From a virus: a stretch of DNA of 24,058 bases. Both the position numbers and the translations under genes were made by a program. The stretch spans positions 1 through 24,058 of IMG/VR virus record IMGVR_UViG_3300032134_000021, one strand, 5' to 3'. Below, in pieces: positions 16,964-24,058 of the stretch. The notes beneath the pieces were generated by a model. The model searched no databases. It was not told the origin of the DNA and saw only the letters and a list, made by a program, of their open reading frames with translations. Position 1 is the stretch's first letter. Every line of letters starts with the position of its first letter.

Positions 16964-18916
16964 CTATTTCTTGCTCCACTTATTTCGGGTGCGATCTTTC
17001 ACGCTGTCCGATTTGCCCTGCGTTTCAGGCGTGACGGCTGCAGCTGGCTGCGTCGCCATTAGAAGATCTTCAAAGTCTGCCTGAACGTCTTCTGGCGGGC
17101 ATTCGCGTTCCGCCATCAGCTTGTCCCATTCGGTATCCGGCAGGCTACGTACGCCTAATCGGATGGCCGCAGTTTCTGCCTGCAAGTGGGTGTCCAGCCC
17201 CTCGTTCGCCTGATTTGGATCTTTGACCCAAAGGTAACGGGTGAACCCTGACTTTGCCTTTTGAGGCTTGCGGGATTCCGATGTCAGCTGCCGGAAATAT
17301 TCATCATCCAAGCCCTTGGGCAGCGCGACGAACCCGCGTTCTTCCGGGTCGTCTTTCTTCAGGTTGCGATACAACGCCATCTTCAAAACCGAAGACGCGA
17401 AGTTGAAGAACCGCTTTGAATACCGGACGATCTTGCCCCGCCGGTTGCGTTCCTTTTTGACCTGCGCCAACAACGGCGCTCCTTCTGGATGCACACCACG
17501 AACCATGATGACGCGACCGGCTGGATGCTTGCGCGACCAATCCCAAACATCTTCGGTGTAGGCGTTGCCGTCGATGGACAGAAGGTCGATTTGGACCTTG
17601 CGACCATATGCGTTTCGGAAACCCTGCTTCAGCAGACCGTTCAGATTGATCTGACATTTTTCATCCGAAATATGCCCGTTGAAAACACCATACTCCACGA
17701 CCGCCCGGCGCTTGTTCATGCCCCATGCGACCACCTGCCATTCAACCCGGTCACCCTGACAATCCACCCCGCAAGTCAGCAGCGGATAGCCCGCAGGAAT
17801 ATTGCCATGCGCATAGTCGGACTCTGACGCCCGGTCGCGCAGATCTTCCCACGGTGGCGACTCCCCAAGGACGCGATAGGCTTTGCCAACAACGTCATTC
17901 CAGAACGTTTGTTCCTTTGGTGGGTCACCCTTCGCCGCCAGCCATGAGCGCGCGATGCGCTCAAATGACTGCAAAGGCGAATAGGCTGACCACAGATAAA
18001 ACGAACGGTGATAACGCTTCTGCTTTGGATTAGACGCCCGCCATTCAACGTGCGGGATCATTTCCGAACGGTGATGATCTTCAATCGCACAGCCGCATTC
18101 TGGACCCTGACAGGTGAAATGCGCGCGTTCCGGATGGTCTTCATCCAGACTTTGCAGCATGTTTTCCCAGTCCAGCACCTGCATGAACCCGCAATGCGGG
18201 CACGGAACGAACGGATATTCTTGGCTTCCTCCATCAAAGTTCACTGTGATGCGGCACCCTGGAATGACCATGGGTGTCGATATCTTGAAGATCTTCGCAA
18301 ACTCGCGACCCTGACTGCGGCTGTCCGCTTGGTTCTCTGGGTCACCCGCGCTGTTCATATCCCACTTCGCAAGGTCATCCTGAACCTGACGGTTCATCGA
18401 AACCTGCGATAGCGATGCCGGTGAATTGGCACCAGAAATCAGGATGGCACCGCGACCGTCGCGGCGTTCCTTATAGGTCACCGAGTCCTGCCCATCGCGG
18501 GCTTTCATCGGGAAAATATTGCGCAGCGCCGTGGTGCCCTTCAGCATCGGCGACAGTTTCATCTTCGACCAGCGCCGCGCGTTCTCATCCGTCGGGTGGA
18601 CGTAGAGAAAATCACCGGGGTCCATGTCCATGGAGCCGCCGGTGAAGATGTTCGCCAGAACCGTGCCGCCGAGCTGTGCCGATTTGGCCAGCGTCACGAT
18701 GCGGCAAGGGTCATCAGGCGAAAGCGCCAGCAGGATGTCATCGAAATAGCGAAAGCGTTGACGGTTATATGGTCCGGAAAACTCGCTTTCACGTTCCGAA
18801 AAGACGATGTTTTCTTCAGCCCATTTCAAATAATCGACGGGAGGCGGCGGGTTCAGGATTTCGGCAAGCACATCGCCTGCCATCCACTCCGCACTGGTGA
18901 TTGCTATGTCCAACAT
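16964..18916 (-). CDS. A: Terminase large subunit (lambda gpA family)
   Basis: This product of about 650 residues starts at ATG 18916, overlapping the small-subunit stop (TGATG); an adjacent GTG at 18919 is possible. It contains the ATPase P-loop-like A-K-S-A-Q-L-G-G-T near residue 78, as in lambda gpA (K-S-A-R-V-G). Further segments are L-Y-V-H-P-T-D, a glycine-rich I-L-I-S-G-A-N-S-P-A-S-L-S-Q turn and D-D-L-A-K-W. A zinc-type pair C-P-H-C (about 240-243) and C-Q-G-P-E-C-G-C (about 270-277) follows, and a nuclease aspartate lies in L-T-C-G-V-D-C-Q-G-D. The protein cuts concatemeric DNA at cos and pumps it into the prohead through the portal. The length equals lambda gpA (641). Confidence 0.96.
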   Translation of the reverse strand: MLDIAITSAEWMAGDVLAEILNPPPPVDYLKWAEENIVFSERESEFSGPYNRQRFRYFDDILLALSPDDPCRIVTLAKSAQLGGTVLANIFTGGSMDMDPGDFLYVHPTDENARRWSKMKLSPMLKGTTALRNIFPMKARDGQDSVTYKERRDGRGAILISGANSPASLSQVSMNRQVQDDLAKWDMNSAGDPENQADSRSQGREFAKIFKISTPMVIPGCRITVNFDGGSQEYPFVPCPHCGFMQVLDWENMLQSLDEDHPERAHFTCQGPECGCAIEDHHRSEMIPHVEWRASNPKQKRYHRSFYLWSAYSPLQSFERIARSWLAAKGDPPKEQTFWNDVVGKAYRVLGESPPWEDLRDRASESDYAHGNIPAGYPLLTCGVDCQGDRVEWQVVAWGMNKRRAVVEYGVFNGHISDEKCQINLNGLLKQGFRNAYGRKVQIDLLSIDGNAYTEDVWDWSRKHPAGRVIMVRGVHPEGAPLLAQVKKERNRRGKIVRYSKRFFNFASSVLKMALYRNLKKDDPEERGFVALPKGLDDEYFRQLTSESRKPQKAKSGFTRYLWVKDPNQANEGLDTHLQAETAAIRLGVRSLPDTEWDKLMAERECPPEDVQADFEDLLMATQPAAAVTPETQGKSDSVKDRTRNKWSKK

Positions 18917-19617
18917 CACTCATCCAATTCAACTGAAGCCGTTGTGTTCCTTTCCAGGTTCGCGATGCGCGACCGCTCCTTTTGGGTGGCGGTCTGGCGC
19001 ACATTCCTGAATTCAGCTTTCAACAAGTGCAAAACATCGCGCTGCGGAACTTCAAACTGCGACGCGATCGTTGCAGCAAAATCGGTCAAAGACCCTTCAA
19101 ATATCTGCAGCATCATGCTGGCCACACGCGTCATCTGTTCGCGGGCATCTTCAGCTGACATCAGCTTGCCCTGCTGAAGCGCCTCCTCAGCCGCCCCCAT
19201 CCGGTTCTTGCGGTGCTGTTCTTCCAGCCTCGCCCGCTTCAGCTGGTCTTCAACTGTATCGACCTTTGGCTGTGCAAGTTCAGTGGCTGGTTTTCCGACC
19301 GCAGACGGCGCGGCTTCTGAACCCAATAGGTCTGGCTGGGTTTCAACGGGAGCCACAGTTGCAGGCGCAGCAGCACTAGACGTGGCTTCAGTCGAAGTCC
19401 GGGTTTCAATCCCATTCCCAAGGGCTTGTCCGACGTCACGGTTCCGGCGAACCTGTTCGACCGCGACCGCCAAAATCACCTTCCCCTTTTTATTGGGTTC
19501 GGTGAACGCATCATCGCGCAAGATGTCACGCTTTTTCCACTGACTAACAGCAGCGCGACTGACATCCATGTATCGCGCAAAGTCTGCCTGCGTCTGATGC
19601 TCCTGTGCTGGCTGCAT
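18916..19617 (-). CDS. Terminase small subunit (Nu1-type DNA-binding)
   Basis: This 233-residue protein starts at ATG 19617; a weak GGGAAG lies about 13 bases upstream, so initiation may be inefficient. Residues 8-40 are a helix-turn-helix: Q-A-D-F-A-R-Y-M-D-V-S-R-A-A-V-S-Q-W, then a K-K-R basic tail. This is the 'lA.ll.vs.rtV..W..rG' pattern of Nu1-type small terminases. A low-complexity Ala/Thr/Pro linker (about 75-110) is followed by a charged coiled coil and C-terminal helices that should bind the large subunit. The next gene is gpA and overlaps, as with Nu1-A in lambda. It recognises the packaging site, probably in the adjacent upstream gap. At 233 residues it is longer than Nu1 (181), due to the linker. 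Confidence 0.88.
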   Translation of the reverse strand: MQPAQEHQTQADFARYMDVSRAAVSQWKKRDILRDDAFTEPNKKGKVILAVAVEQVRRNRDVGQALGNGIETRTSTEATSSAAAPATVAPVETQPDLLGSEAAPSAVGKPATELAQPKVDTVEDQLKRARLEEQHRKNRMGAAEEALQQGKLMSAEDAREQMTRVASMMLQIFEGSLTDFAATIASQFEVPQRDVLHLLKAEFRNVRQTATQKERSRIANLERNTTASVELDE

Positions 19618-19800
19618 GATTTTTTAAACTTCCCAGGCGGGCTGCGTCATTTCCGATTGCCAAGCCGCTGTCTGTTAAGCAGCACCCTTCCATTGTTAAG
19701 GCTTTGCAAAAGCCGTCTGACTAGCGAACCCTCGGGCAGCTTCCGCACCGCGTGCGGCTGGAACAACCTACGGTCCCTAACTTTTCTGGCGACCCGAACG
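19618..19800 (-). other. Gap upstream of the small terminase gene; candidate cos/packaging or promoter region
   Basis: No standard gene is evident in these 183 bp. It holds a 6-bp-arm dyad CCGCAC-cgc-GTGCGG (19743-19757), a GGCTTT/AAAGCC hairpin (19701-19714), and a pair of CTTAACA heptamers 21 bp apart (minus strand, 19694-19700 and 19673-19679). In lambda, the cos site with its terminase-binding repeats lies directly upstream of Nu1, so this is the best place for it. The minus-strand frame with RVARKVRDRR and a KLPEGSLVRRLLQ segment is open for 58 codons, has no ATG and ends in TGA at 19644, inside the gap; it may be a remnant. Confidence 0.35.
19673..19700 (-). repeat. Paired heptamer repeat, locus 1 (CTTAACA-N14-CTTAACA)
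   Basis: On the minus strand two CTTAACA copies begin 21 bp apart (19700-19694 and 19679-19673), 56-83 bp upstream of the small terminase ATG. The same arrangement with the same spacing occurs in the opposite orientation at 21650-21677. Shared bases extend to CCTTAACAA-N12-GCTTAACA. Confidence 0.6.
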
Positions 19801-20613
19801 CTACAACAAGGCAGTTCGAACCGCCCTTTTTGTTATGATCAATTCACGCGCCGTCTTCGCAGCACCCGCTGCGACGGTGTATTTCAGCGAAACTTCCCGA
19901 AAGTGAAACGCTGCGAACAGTTCACGGACTTCCGGGCGATCATTGATGGACAGGACGAAGTTTCCAGTAATCTCGCCAAGCGCCTCCGCGATCAATGCAA
20001 ACTGGTCGCGGTCGAACATGCCCTTGCCATAGTCGTCCTCTCCACCCCAATACGGGGGATCAAGGTAGAACAGCGTGTCTGGCCCATCATAGCGGCGCAA
20101 CACCTCTGACCAATCAAGGTTTTCAAACACCACCCCATCCAATCGAGAATGAGCCGCATCCAACAACGGTTCCAGCTTTGTCAGGCTAAAGCGCGGGGCC
20201 GAGTCCTTTGCGACGCCGAACACGCCGCCCACCTGCCCGCCAAACGCCAGGCGTTGCAAAAACAGAAACCGGGCCGCGCGTTCCAGGTCCGTCAACGTGG
20301 ACGGATCGCACATCCTCAGGCGTTCAAATTCCCGGCGCGACGATATCTGAAACCGCATCACCTCCATGAACTGCGGATAGTGCCGCTGAAGGATGCGGAA
20401 CAGGTTGGTGATTTCGCCATTCAGGTCGTTCATGACCTCAAGACGTGGCCGCCATTGACGACGCAGGAACACGCCACCCATGCCCACAAATGGCTCCACG
20501 TAGGTTTGATGCGGTATTGCATCGATGGCTTCGATGATGCGCTGGTGTAGGGCTTTCTTCCCCCCCAACCACGCTGCCACAGGGGCTGCGGCGGAAACTT
20601 TGGTCATTGTCAT
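19801..20613 (-). CDS. D12-class DNA N6-adenine methyltransferase
   Basis: The enzyme has about 270 residues if read from ATG 20613 (a TTG at 20700 would add 29 residues of poor quality). It shows the alpha-group Dam order: motif X A-A-W-L-G-G-K-K near residue 15, motif I T-Y-V-E-P-F-V-G-M-G-G-V-F-L near 40 (AdoMet binding), and motif IV D-P-P-Y-W-G at about 185-190 (catalysis). F-V-L-S-I-N-D-R-P-E-V follows. It transfers a methyl group from AdoMet to adenine, which phages use to escape host restriction or to mark DNA for packaging; the target is not readable. There is no paired endonuclease, so it is solitary. It lies between a Z-like gene and the terminase, outside the usual structural order, with a palindrome just upstream of the likely start. 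Confidence 0.92.
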   Translation of the reverse strand: MTMTKVSAAAPVAAWLGGKKALHQRIIEAIDAIPHQTYVEPFVGMGGVFLRRQWRPRLEVMNDLNGEITNLFRILQRHYPQFMEVMRFQISSRREFERLRMCDPSTLTDLERAARFLFLQRLAFGGQVGGVFGVAKDSAPRFSLTKLEPLLDAAHSRLDGVVFENLDWSEVLRRYDGPDTLFYLDPPYWGGEDDYGKGMFDRDQFALIAEALGEITGNFVLSINDRPEVRELFAAFHFREVSLKYTVAAGAAKTARELIITKRAVRTALL

Positions 20614-20642
20614 TGTTGCGATGTCCAGAATAAAGAGGCCGC

Positions 20643-20656
20643 ACTCTCGCGAGAGT
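20643..20656 (-). promoter_or_regulatory. 14-bp perfect palindrome upstream of the methyltransferase
   Basis: ACTCTCGCGAGAGT is self-complementary over 14 bp and lies 30 bp upstream of the preferred methyltransferase ATG. It could be an operator site for a dimeric repressor or an RNA hairpin without a terminator tail. If translation begins at the upstream TTG, it lies inside the coding frame. Confidence 0.35.
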
Positions 20657-20754
20657 CGGGCGGCATATTCTGTGATGGATGTCGGCGCAGTTGGTCTCAA
20701 AGCAAGCTGCGTGGTGGTCGTTAAAAGCCACCCCCGCCCGCAAGCGGAAGTGAC

Positions 20755-20781
20755 AGCCGGTCAGATACCCAGCGACCGGCT
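20755..20781 (-). repeat. Inverted repeat across the Z-like stop codon
   Basis: AGCCGGTC (20755-20762) and GACCGGCT (20774-20781) form a perfect 8-bp stem with an 11-base loop, covering the stop codon of the Z-like gene. No T-run follows on the minus strand, so it would not be an efficient intrinsic terminator; it may stabilise the 3' end of that message. Confidence 0.4.
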
Positions 20782-21333
20782 GATTTCGTGATCAAGACGA
20801 CGCGGCAACACATCAGCCACGACAGCCTCAAATGCATCGGCGGTTTCGCCCTCGACCATTTCGATTGGGATGAACACGCCGGACTTCACCACCTTGAGGT
20901 CAAAGCGATATTCGCTCACCCGATCCAAGACGTGCCCACCGAAGGCACTCAGGTTTACCCGGCGAGGGAATGCGCCGCCCCTAAAGAAGGTTCTGTCAAA
21001 CAAGACCTTGCCGCGTGCCGTCCCCAGATGCGCAACGACGCCATCGGGCGTTTCACGCTTTTTGAAGAATTTCAGCGCCACATCGCCACCCGATGATGTC
21101 AGGCTGTACTCCAAATCCTGCCACGACGCCCGCTTGACCTTCACGGCCTTGCGGATGGTCTTTTGTGGCAGCCCTGTCTGTTTGGCCAACGCACGCACCA
21201 CATGGGTCTTCCCCATATCGCCAGTGCGGTTCAGGGCGCGGGTGATGACTTTTGGTGCGTTTTTCCCCAAAGCCCCCAGCATATTGCCGAACTGGTTCAG
21301 TTCACTGACATCGACATCACCAACACGGAACAT
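20761..21333 (-). CDS. Minor tail protein Z-like / tail completion protein
   Basis: This 190-residue protein starts at ATG 21333 with AGAGGG just upstream. It resembles the minor tail protein Z family: V-I-T-R-A-L-N-R-T-G-D-M-G-K-T-H-V-V-R-A-L-A-K-Q-T-G-L-P-Q-K-T-I-R-K-A-V ('a..raln....'; 'v...l....gl.....ir'). A beta-rich central part follows, and then F-F-R-G-G-A-F-P-R-R-V-N. In lambda, Z acts in tail completion, so that the finished tail can join the head. Its place upstream of the methyltransferase and terminase, far from the other tail genes, is unusual. HK97 gp10-like neck proteins are an alternative family. The gene probably has its own promoter or is read through from 21343-21489. Confidence 0.85.
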   Translation of the reverse strand: MFRVGDVDVSELNQFGNMLGALGKNAPKVITRALNRTGDMGKTHVVRALAKQTGLPQKTIRKAVKVKRASWQDLEYSLTSSGGDVALKFFKKRETPDGVVAHLGTARGKVLFDRTFFRGGAFPRRVNLSAFGGHVLDRVSEYRFDLKVVKSGVFIPIEMVEGETADAFEAVVADVLPRRLDHEISRSLGI

Positions 21334-21342
21334 CCAACCCTC

Positions 21343-21489
21343 TCAATCTTCGCAAGCGTAAGTCCCGCCATGAGCGTTCGCTTCATATTCGGCTCCCAGG
21401 TCTGATTGCAAAACACCGCACATCAACCGATGCCGATGCCACGTAAAAAAATAGCCCGGACGTTGCCGCCGGGCTTTGTGTTTGGGCAT
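21343..21489 (-). CDS. Possible 48-residue small protein just upstream of the Z-like gene
   Basis: ATG 21489 opens a 48-residue frame starting M-P-K-H-K-A-R-R-Q-R-P-G-Y-F-F and ending in G-A-E-Y-E-A-N-A-H-G-G-T-Y-A-C-E-D with TGA at 21343-21345. The ribosome-binding site of the Z-like gene overlaps its stop, which would fit operon coupling. Against it, the first third of the frame encodes the hairpin and T-run of a terminator-like structure, and the upstream ribosome-binding site (AAGAGA) lies very close to the ATG. The latter half reads as plausible protein with a possible Cys pair. I cannot name a family. Confidence 0.3.
   Translation of the reverse strand: MPKHKARRQRPGYFFTWHRHRLMCGVLQSDLGAEYEANAHGGTYACED
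21444..21475 (-). terminator. Intrinsic terminator-like hairpin upstream of the Z-like gene
   Basis: On the minus strand, AGCCCGG (21475-21469), a 9-base loop and CCGGGCT (21459-21453) are followed by ATTTTTTTA, a strong T-run. On the plus strand the stem is followed by TTTGTGTTT, so it may work in both directions. It would separate the Z/methyltransferase/terminase genes from anything transcribed from the radical SAM side. Confidence 0.7.
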
Positions 21490-21528
21490 ATCTCTTAATT
21501 TTAGACGCAGTGACTGGCTTTTGCCTTT

Positions 21529-21705
21529 TCACCTATCCGGGGGCCTTGGTTTGCCACTTCCAGCTTTCGCTGTGATTACCTCATTTGGCAGGGACCACTG
21601 GTCATCCTGAATCGCTGTTAACTCCGTTCCCCCGCACCTGTCAACAGCCCTTAACAAATCACACCCAACGCTTAACAATCGGCTGTCAGGCGCGAAGGAG
21701 GGCAT
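21529..21705 (-). CDS. Possible 58-residue ORF in the upstream spacer
   Basis: ATG 21705 opens a frame ending at TGA 21529, with segments R-L-L-S-V-G-C-D-L-L-R-A-V-D and D-D-Q-W-S-L-P-N-E-V-I-T. There is no recognisable ribosome-binding site and it uses TTA codons, rare in the neighbouring genes. The two TGTTAAG heptamers lie inside it, 7 codons apart, in the L-L-S and L-L-R codons. It may be a chance frame. Confidence 0.18.
   Translation of the reverse strand: MPSFAPDSRLLSVGCDLLRAVDRCGGTELTAIQDDQWSLPNEVITAKAGSGKPRPPDR
21650..21677 (+). repeat. Paired heptamer repeat, locus 2 (CTTAACA-N14-CTTAACA)
   Basis: On the plus strand CTTAACA occurs at 21650-21656 and 21671-21677, 21 bp apart, in the reverse orientation to locus 1. 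A further TTAACT (21618-21623) and TCAACA (21641-21646) lie nearby. Context fits a protein-binding array or the end of a mobile segment. Confidence 0.6.
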
Positions 21706-22027: not shown

Positions 22028-24058
22028 TTAAGCTAAAACTGCCATCGGTTCGGGCATATTCTCACTTAACCACTTATCGTAAAGCCCGTAACGCCCCGGT
22101 TCCCCAATTATTATTCCCTGTTCTACCCAGCACCTTAACACGGAATCATTCTGATTGGTCGTGTTAAACCCCTCTATTGCCCCATCATTCCGCAAGGTCA
22201 CTGCCTCCCGAAGTTCGGACATTCCATAAGCATCAGCATCAATCGTCTTGGCATCTGCTTCCGCTCCGATCAGAAGTATCCCCTTTGGTTCGCCCGTTCT
22301 CGCGTTCTCTAAAAACCGTATTGTAGGATTCACGTAAAAATCCAGTTCACTTCGAGGTATCGCCTTCGTGGAGGGCAACACATTTTTACCTAAGGCGAAC
22401 ATAGAAAACTTTCTGAAAGCCTCCCTAATTTTCTCTGACCCAATTTCATCCAATATTTCTTCCGAGGTGAACGAGGGCGAAGACCAGTGGGGGTCATCTT
22501 GAACGAAATGCTCTAAGAATTGCAGAAATTCCTCAACCGATCCGTAGTCGTAGTCGTAGGCTCTGAGTTGATTTTTTTGTTTCCCGTGAGTTGTTAACCA
22601 ATCAGCCCATCGTTTTACCAAATCCAAATGATCCGCTCCGTTCTCAGCAAGCATTTCATAGAGCCTCGGCATAACACCAATAACTGGGGCATACTCTTCC
22701 AGCACCCGAACGGCACGCATAACGGGCTTAGTTTTCAAAATCCGGCCCCATCTACTGTGCAATTGGCGATTTGCTGCAATCTCTGTGGCGTTCTTCTCTC
22801 GAATATCAAATGGGAGTGGGAAGTCTATAAAACGTTGTTCAAGAACAATTCTGCCTTCAATGTCCTTAAATGATGGGCTTCCCTTGTATGGCGCATAACC
22901 GAATATATGCGCAGTTACCTTCTCTTGGAGAAGGTAGTGATAAAATTCTTTCATCGTACCACGCAGACTTTCTTCATCATCTTGCGGCAAACCCGCAATC
23001 AAACCCACTGTCACTGCAATATTCGATTCTATGCATTTTTCGATCACCTTCCTACCCTTGGCTAGGTCAAGATTCTTGTCAATTCCGTCCTGTCCTTTAT
23101 CGGTTCCGGTCTCAATACCGAAGTAAATGCCATTGCATCCAGCGGCGGCCATGCGCTCAATCATTTCCTCGTCGATTGTATCGGTTCTAGAGCTGCAGCT
23201 CCATGAAATCTTTAATCCTGATTCACAAAAGGCATCGCATACCTGCAAAACCCATTTTCGATTAGTTGTAAATAAATCGTGGGTGAGATTATAATTGCCG
23301 CGAGCTATCGTTTCCTCAAAATACTTGAGTTCCTTTACTATCCGTTCTGGCGTTTTTACGCGATGCAAGCGATGCCAGAATGGGGCGGTCACGCAAAAAT
23401 TGCACTTGAACGGACAGCCGCGACCTACTTCCACCCACACATCATCTTTTGCATCAACCAAAACGTCATCAATGAACGGAAATGGTAGCTCGTCCAGCGA
23501 TTTGATAAGTGGGCCTTCAGGGTTTCTAATGGTCTCTCCTTGAAATCTATATGTAGTATTTGGGGTCTCAACAGGAACCTTATCATGTAAAATATCTGAA
23601 ACGAGCTTTGGGAAGTAGATTTCCCCTTCCCCGCGATAGATAAAGTCTATAGACGCTTCGCTTTCCAGTATTTCTACATCCAACATAGTCGGATGGACCC
23701 CACCCAATACGATACTGACATCGGGCGATCTGGCTTTCGCAACACGTGTCATTTGCAAGGTATGATGAAATGAATCGCAATCGACCATGAACGCTAGTAT
23801 TCTAGGGTTGCCCTGCAATGCCAAACTCGCCCAACGATTATAGATCGTTGAATCAACATTTACCGTTCCGTTGTTCACGTGCTTATTAATTTCCAAAATT
23901 CGGGCACTGCAACCCGCTTCCTCTACCGCTCTTTTAAGCGAGAGGAGCCCCATTGGAAGGAACGATTGGCAGATGTTTGCCGCAGTAGATGCATATTTGC
24001 GCTCTGCGTCGTGAAACAAAGGTGATCTATTTAGGTGCAAACTAGAGCAAAAAGTAAC
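22028..24058 (-). CDS. B12-binding-type radical SAM enzyme, N-terminus beyond the window
   Basis: The frame is open to the right edge, 676 residues being visible; a TTG at 24040 is in frame but the strand V-T-F-C-S-S-L before it looks like the start of a Rossmann-type domain, so the true start lies outside. Residues about 1-170 are a cobalamin-binding-type domain (L-G-G-V-H-P-T and G-E-G-E-I-Y-F), without the base-off DxHxxG motif. The radical SAM core follows with C215-P-F-K-C219-N-F-C222 for the 4Fe-4S cluster, then G-I-Y-F-G-I-E-T-G-T and G-L-I-A-G-L-P. The last 250 residues, ending in a helical unit (S-E-L-R-E-A-V-T-L-R), match no domain I know. Such enzymes do methylations and other radical chemistry, often in peptide or natural-product pathways. 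The AT-rich codons contrast with the phage genes, suggesting separate acquisition. Confidence 0.88.
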   Translation of the reverse strand, partial: VTFCSSLHLNRSPLFHDAERKYASTAANICQSFLPMGLLSLKRAVEEAGCSARILEINKHVNNGTVNVDSTIYNRWASLALQGNPRILAFMVDCDSFHHTLQMTRVAKARSPDVSIVLGGVHPTMLDVEILESEASIDFIYRGEGEIYFPKLVSDILHDKVPVETPNTTYRFQGETIRNPEGPLIKSLDELPFPFIDDVLVDAKDDVWVEVGRGCPFKCNFCVTAPFWHRLHRVKTPERIVKELKYFEETIARGNYNLTHDLFTTNRKWVLQVCDAFCESGLKISWSCSSRTDTIDEEMIERMAAAGCNGIYFGIETGTDKGQDGIDKNLDLAKGRKVIEKCIESNIAVTVGLIAGLPQDDEESLRGTMKEFYHYLLQEKVTAHIFGYAPYKGSPSFKDIEGRIVLEQRFIDFPLPFDIREKNATEIAANRQLHSRWGRILKTKPVMRAVRVLEEYAPVIGVMPRLYEMLAENGADHLDLVKRWADWLTTHGKQKNQLRAYDYDYGSVEEFLQFLEHFVQDDPHWSSPSFTSEEILDEIGSEKIREAFRKFSMFALGKNVLPSTKAIPRSELDFYVNPTIRFLENARTGEPKGILLIGAEADAKTIDADAYGMSELREAVTLRNDGAIEGFNTTNQNDSVLRCWVEQGIIIGEPGRYGLYDKWLSENMPEPMAVLA

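Follow-up and report, generated by a model that had tools for sequence, protein, structure and literature searches.

Two inverted pairs of the heptamer CTTAACA in the DNA of a marine prophage appear to belong to two different elements, the cosB part of a lambda-type cos (site B) and the promoter of the late operon (site A), and a comparison of related phages suggests that one protein, TerS, may bind both sites and autoregulate late transcription. We consider this model as a whole moderately likely. At the level of sequence, the comparison establishes the existence of A and B, the arrangement of the cos and of the promoter, and, at B, the covariation of word and TerS. The cos part is of a kind already known, and the sharing of its words with a late promoter is what is new.

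The window analyzed here is an IMG/VR virus record taken at its full length of 24,058 bases. Its DNA is that of a prophage of a marine bacterium, and its clear phage genes all lie on the minus strand; besides those in Table 1, they encode a ClpP-like protease, capsid E, sheath and tape measure proteins. Relatives were collected by TerS searches, which yielded approximately 35 viral contigs and 13 genome loci (Z as a query found 1 locus only). The close relatives come from Rhodobacteraceae, including Yoonia, Aliiroseovarius, Halocynthiibacter, Phaeobacter, Antarcticimicrobium, Thioclava, Ruegeria and Pseudooceanicola, among others.

Occurrence of the word pairs

A first-pass annotation of this DNA had reported two inverted CTTAACA-N14-CTTAACA pairs around the dam and Z genes. 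Both were found to be exact, they are the only matches in the window with up to 2 mismatches, and both carry the extended match CCTTAACAA-N12-GCTTAACA that had also been described. In the window and in its nearest relatives, A and B share this heptamer and the order of CCTTAACAA and then, after about 20 bp, GCTTAACA. A has a third word, GTTAACA, beyond the noted pair. The exact 21-bp spacing holds in the window but not as a conserved property, as the words of relatives are 19-21 bp apart at A and 16-21 bp apart at B, where a third word usually lies 13-15 bp beyond the second. These distances bear out the annotation's remark that the spacing is unlike the TTAA-N7-TTAA of CtrA.

Table 1. Coordinates of the features in the window and of NusG paralogue genes in four relatives
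Feature	Position	Strand	Remark
Site B pair, CTTAACAATGGAAGGGTGCTGCTTAACA	19673-19700	-	exact CTTAACA-N14-CTTAACA
Site A pair, CTTAACAAATCACACCCAACGCTTAACA	21650-21677	+	exact CTTAACA-N14-CTTAACA, inverted relative to B
B word 1 (R-type site), CTTAACA within AAAGCCTTAACAA	19694-19700	-	exact
B word 2, CTTAACA	19673-19679	-	exact
cosQ-like GGGACCG	19771-19777	-	76 bp before CCTTAACA; near-invariant spacing in ~30 relatives
cosN candidate, perfect dyad CCGCAC-GCG-GTGCGG	19743-19757	.	centre 50 bp from word 1
A word 1 (TGTTAAG as transcribed), upstream of -35	21671-21677	+	exact
A word 2, five bases upstream of -35	21650-21656	+	exact
Predicted late promoter -35, TTGACA	21639-21644	-	conserved spacer
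A word 3, GTTAACA, opposite in orientation to words 1 and 2	21616-21622	-	overlaps predicted -10
-10 candidate, TTAACA	21616-21621	-	conserved spacer
Conserved untranslated leader	21445-21615	-	intrinsic terminator at its end
Intrinsic terminator, AGCCCGG..CCGGGCTATTTTTTT	21445-21475	-	end of window leader
Z, minor tail protein Z / tail completion or Neck1 gene	20761-21333	-	PF06763, phrog_27
Dam-type adenine methyltransferase	19801-20619	-	PF02086, TIGR00571
TerS	18916-19617	-	phrog_57; predicted wHTH; recognition helix SRAAVSQW
TerL, GpA type	16964-18919	-	PF05876, PF20454
NusG paralogue genes of relatives	L012:4193-4858, L004:3593-4282, L023:3230-3886, L027:7241-7873		directly upstream of late promoter

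The annotation had also considered that the pairs might be of coding origin, 21 bp being seven codons. That they are chance or coding repeats has a practically negligible probability. The window holds 5 copies of CTTAACA where 0.97 would be expected, shuffled windows held a mean of 0.05 pairs, and two pairs were reached in 0 of 100 shuffles. In the sample of relatives used for counting (29 loci with 363,522 bases, some of them mutually close kin, so that counts are not independent), 120 copies of CTTAACA were counted, of which 58 fall in B and 57 in A, with 5 elsewhere. A coding origin in particular is unlikely, because A and B are both intergenic and are conserved as non-coding blocks in the relatives. 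The pair is not a host motif either. A search of six Rhodobacteraceae genomes (~25 Mb), a check that the annotation had proposed, matched it once, and the site of a host regulator was rejected because this single match lies on a prophage contig, that of Halocynthiibacter, near or within its A site. In the window, dam and Z lie between the two inverted pairs, which had been read as possible ends of an inserted dam/Z cassette. This reading was discarded and is hardly credible, given that dam-free relatives (e.g., L028, in which dam is missing between A and terS) keep both sites at variable A-B distances, that Z is present throughout, and that A has the features of a promoter and B those of a cos. 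Dam is instead optional cargo between Z and cos. The slot between A and cos holds additional length in L008 and L033.

Site B and the recognition helix of TerS

Judged from its layout, site B (19673-19700) represents cosB within a cos of the lambda type, an assignment that is close to settled. The annotation's suggestion of terminase-binding repeats of a cos region fits this site, where a cosQ-like element, a fixed spacing and a word that covaries with the TerS helix are found together. The block reads, in about 30 relatives and in this order, AGGGACCGTA, a CACGCGG segment, GCCCGAGGGTTCG, AGTCAGAC, AAAGCCTTAACA, 1-2 further words and terS. In nearly all close relatives AAGCCTTAACA follows GGGACCG by 76-77 bp, and in almost all relatives CTTAACA or CTTAACG comes 16-21 bp after word 1, with usually 2-4 words upstream of terS. 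Over some 70-80 phages, GGGACCG or GGGTCCT sits 72-77 bp ahead of the first word. Distant TerS homologues in alphaproteobacterial genomes have GGGTCCT, followed 72-75 bp later by an AGCC-word in the homologues measured, and Sinorhizobium phage phi2LM21 has GGGTCCT as well. In the lambda sequence, GGGTCCT precedes cosN base 1 by 29 bp and the first CGTTTCC by 82 bp, and this heptamer at -29 is the cosQ of lambda. The candidate for cosN is the perfect dyad listed in Table 1, in a region whose CACGCGG block is conserved in relatives, and we infer from sequence the position of the cosN end of the cosQ-cosN interval. In lambda, the cut made by terminase lies 47 +/- 2 bp from R (title of Higgins and Becker 1994, cited in PMC4669245).

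The same layout extends beyond phages with CTTAACA. A pattern search with the cos core only matched 75 viral contigs, nearly all of the same layout and many with different words, and the 30 viral contigs with the B pattern were all also recovered by TerS searches. One contig has an insert of approximately 1 kb that separates cosB from terS (L078:7000-7986). Around one conserved cos core, at least seven types of word were found, and they covary with the recognition helix of TerS: CTTAACA is paired with helix SRAAVSQW or SRARVSQW, GTGAACT with GKSAVSNW, GTCAACA with SRFAVSKW, CGCAACA with HRSQVTRY, GTTAACG with SKPAVSKT, CTTAAAA with KPARITQM, and CTAAAG or CTAAAC with SPGRVSQY and similar helices. 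The cleanest switch is that of phage L105, whose cos core resembles that of the CTTAACA clade and whose TerS still strongly matches the clade profile, with both helix and word exchanged.

Structure prediction from the window and locus sequences gave TerS a helix-turn-helix plus wing (wHTH), and the DNA-binding domain of gpNu1 (1j9i) was among its weak fold hits (TMt 0.61, E 0.95); a direct hhalign comparison with gpNu1 gave an E of 0.016 over the HTH at a probability of only 2.8%. We regard TerS as very probably the protein that binds the B words, because the word follows the recognition helix, a wHTH is predicted and the gpNu1 domain is among the weak fold matches.

The likeness to lambda includes the order of cosQ, cosN, cosB (R3, R2 and R1 in lambda) and terS, the GGGTCCT of distant relatives, a cosQ-to-R distance of 72-77 bp as compared with 82 bp in lambda, and a TerS with a predicted N-terminal wHTH, the recognition helix of which probably sets packaging specificity, encoded upstream of a GpA-type terL. 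The two systems differ in that all R words here have one orientation and lie 13-21 bp apart, gaps that leave no room for a lambda-like IHF loop (R3-R2), in that the TerS sequences are nearly unrelated, and in the recurrence of the cosB words at the late promoter. Phage N15 is also without the lambda-like R3-IHF-R2 layout (PMC4669245).

Site A, the leader and the NusG paralogue

Site A (21616-21677), about 2,000 bases upstream of B, has the sequence pattern of a late promoter and points towards Z, dam, terS and the structural genes, which fits the operator sites of a late regulator that the annotation had offered as another meaning of the pairs. In the orientation of TerS, its consensus reads [TC]GTTAAG, about 13 bases, TGTTAAGGGGGN, TTGACR, 17 bases and TTAACA, with words at fixed positions. 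The spacer between the candidate -35 and -10 is 17 bp in 28 of 30 promoters, and the gap between word 2 and the -35 is 5 bp in 25 of the 30. TTGACA fits the -35 of sigma-70, and TTAACA is a weak -10 that was absent from the output of a generic promoter scan. This promoter/terminator scan missed both the A promoter and the leader terminator, the former for its weak -10 and the latter probably for a loop longer than the scan allows. The distance of A from terS varies among relatives from approximately 1.0 to 2.1 kb. In the Halocynthiibacter prophage, additional CTTAACA words upstream of A form an extended operator-like array (L003:3722-3867). A match to the late-promoter pattern in another phage, L082, was set aside as chance.

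The leader between this predicted promoter and Z, the first gene after it, falls into three classes among relatives, T1, T2 and T3, of which the window has T3; the terminator of the T1 class reads GGCCCG..CGGGCCTTTTT. An alignment of T2 leaders (A3: L012:4893-5100, L013, L014, L015, L018, L021, L022, L032, L040, L068 and L073) contained 20 pairs with compensatory change on both sides, a number reached by 0 of 500 shuffles. There were 13 compensatory pairs in T1 and just 2 in T3, and folding of the window leader as a single sequence was not significant (z -1.16). The case for leader covariation thus rests on T2 and, more weakly, on T1. Rfam gave no hit in the window or four relatives and no family above threshold for the T2 leader RNA, and matches to the leader pattern in L177 and L179 were unrelated.

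The gene upstream of A in most relatives encodes a NusG paralogue with NGN plus KOW (PF02357, phrog_6386), and phi2LM21 has the same gene order with an upstream gene annotated as NusG. Compared with solved structures, the profile of this protein is closest to NusG and more weakly related to RfaH, and its matches to UpxY and RfaH fell below the cut-off. An NGN plus KOW protein beside the operon, a leader element and a terminator were accordingly found together in the relatives, where the T2 leader is a possible recruitment element for the paralogue, and we infer NusG-paralogue antitermination on the late operon.

In the window, the slot upstream of A (22028-24058) is occupied by a B12-binding radical-SAM gene that is weakly ApyD/BchE-like and runs to the record end. 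A lone CTTAACA inside it (22134-22140, plus strand) is probably a chance occurrence. The NusG gene of the window phage probably lies beyond the record, because relatives often have cargo genes that separate A from the NusG gene (L028, L069, L014, L135/L170). A prophage end (att) next to A was considered, as the B12/radical-SAM gene abuts A, and was judged less likely because L028, L069, L014 and L135 show such cargo.

In lambda, where Q acts by antitermination, the late promoter pR' lies just downstream of the Q gene, and a leader with an intrinsic terminator separates it from the late operon. The arrangement here is alike, with a late promoter downstream of a candidate regulator gene, a leader, an intrinsic terminator and the late operon, but the candidate regulator in the position of Q is the NusG paralogue, the operator words equal the cosB words, and the leader is long and, in at least one class, structured. 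LoaP, a NusG paralogue of Bacillus, acts on dfn with a leader RNA hairpin (PMC12691694, PMC7819879). The likeness to LoaP/dfn is one of layout, namely a NusG paralogue beside its target operon, a structured leader and an intrinsic terminator, and no membership is claimed; the present system differs in being phage-borne and alphaproteobacterial, with a different, larger RNA, a late virion operon as its target and an action that is predicted only.

TerS at the late promoter

In the model that we favor, the words are binding sites of TerS and, at B, serve as the R sites of a cos consisting of cosQ, cosN, cosB and terS. TerS bound there would position TerL to cut, with which DNA packaging starts. 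At A, the same words, together with one over the -10, would lie on the promoter from which the late genes (Z, dam, terS, terL and the virion genes) are transcribed, and TerS, made late from this promoter, would probably return to it and repress it. Autorepression is ranked above activation because one word covers the -10. Such repression would link late expression to the pool of packaging-ready TerS, and full late transcription would additionally have to pass the leader and its intrinsic terminator, most likely with the NusG paralogue.

Binding of TerS at A is likely in our judgment, and the phages in which TerS has switched its word favor it, these cases being few and not independent. Of 29 phages with a CTTAACA-type TerS, 27 have at least two of the three A words, as compared with 0 of 2 TerS-switched phages. 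The L135 phage, whose TerS is of the GTCAACA type, has no old A words, and its new word at the late promoter is the only copy of GTCAACA outside cosB in 39.5 kb; this word overlaps the TTGAC of the -35, and the match is therefore partly expected. The conservation of word 3 likewise has a second cause in its overlap with the -10.

The observations on L105 can also be read in favor of a separate early phage regulator, an activator or a repressor, that would bind A through the same word, e.g., by a shared ancestral HTH, with TerS bound to cosB at B. Two of the three A words are gone from L105, but it keeps word 2, beside the -35, although its TerS reads GTGAACT. Additionally, the upstream A words sit where activators usually bind, and A-type words are absent outside the clade; there, in phi2LM21 among others, R words show no clustering at any fixed position ahead of cos. 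We nevertheless regard such a regulator as unlikely, given that most A words were lost in both TerS-switched phages, that a non-exhaustive search recognized no second conserved HTH gene beside A, and that the same 9-mer and word order occur at A and B. This last identity would equally suit a second packaging element, in which remote TerS sites at A aid terminase assembly or looping to cos and the promoter is nearby by chance, and for phage N15 an accessory TerS site outside the main cosB has been proposed (PMC4669245). The fixed spacing between words and promoter, combined with the variable distance from A to terS, points instead to transcription and makes this reading distinctly improbable.

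A partial precedent for TerS binding at late promoters is found in phage SPP1, where pac overlaps PL1/PL2 and gene 1 and the sites of its TerS (gp1) coincide with the late promoters (PMC6316719). There, the promoter lies inside the packaging site, whereas here the words recur as copies at a promoter that is 1-2 kb away from cos. Literature searches of incomplete coverage returned no report in which TerS acts at a late promoter remote from cos or in which a NusG paralogue of a phage serves the late genes, and no tested case of such remote promoter control by TerS is known to us.

TerS is normally viewed as a packaging factor only. The fuller proposal, that it doubles as a regulator of the late operon through cosB words copied to a remote promoter, in a feedback loop between packaging and virion genes that is set atop NusG-paralogue antitermination with a covarying leader RNA, seems to us evenly poised. 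If true, one protein would tie the expression of virion genes to the packaging of the genome. A NusG-paralogue system in a phage, with a leader RNA that covaries, would be a further yield of this family, and the natural code of words and helices may help to predict where cos sites lie and which packaging specificity they have in phages of alphaproteobacteria.
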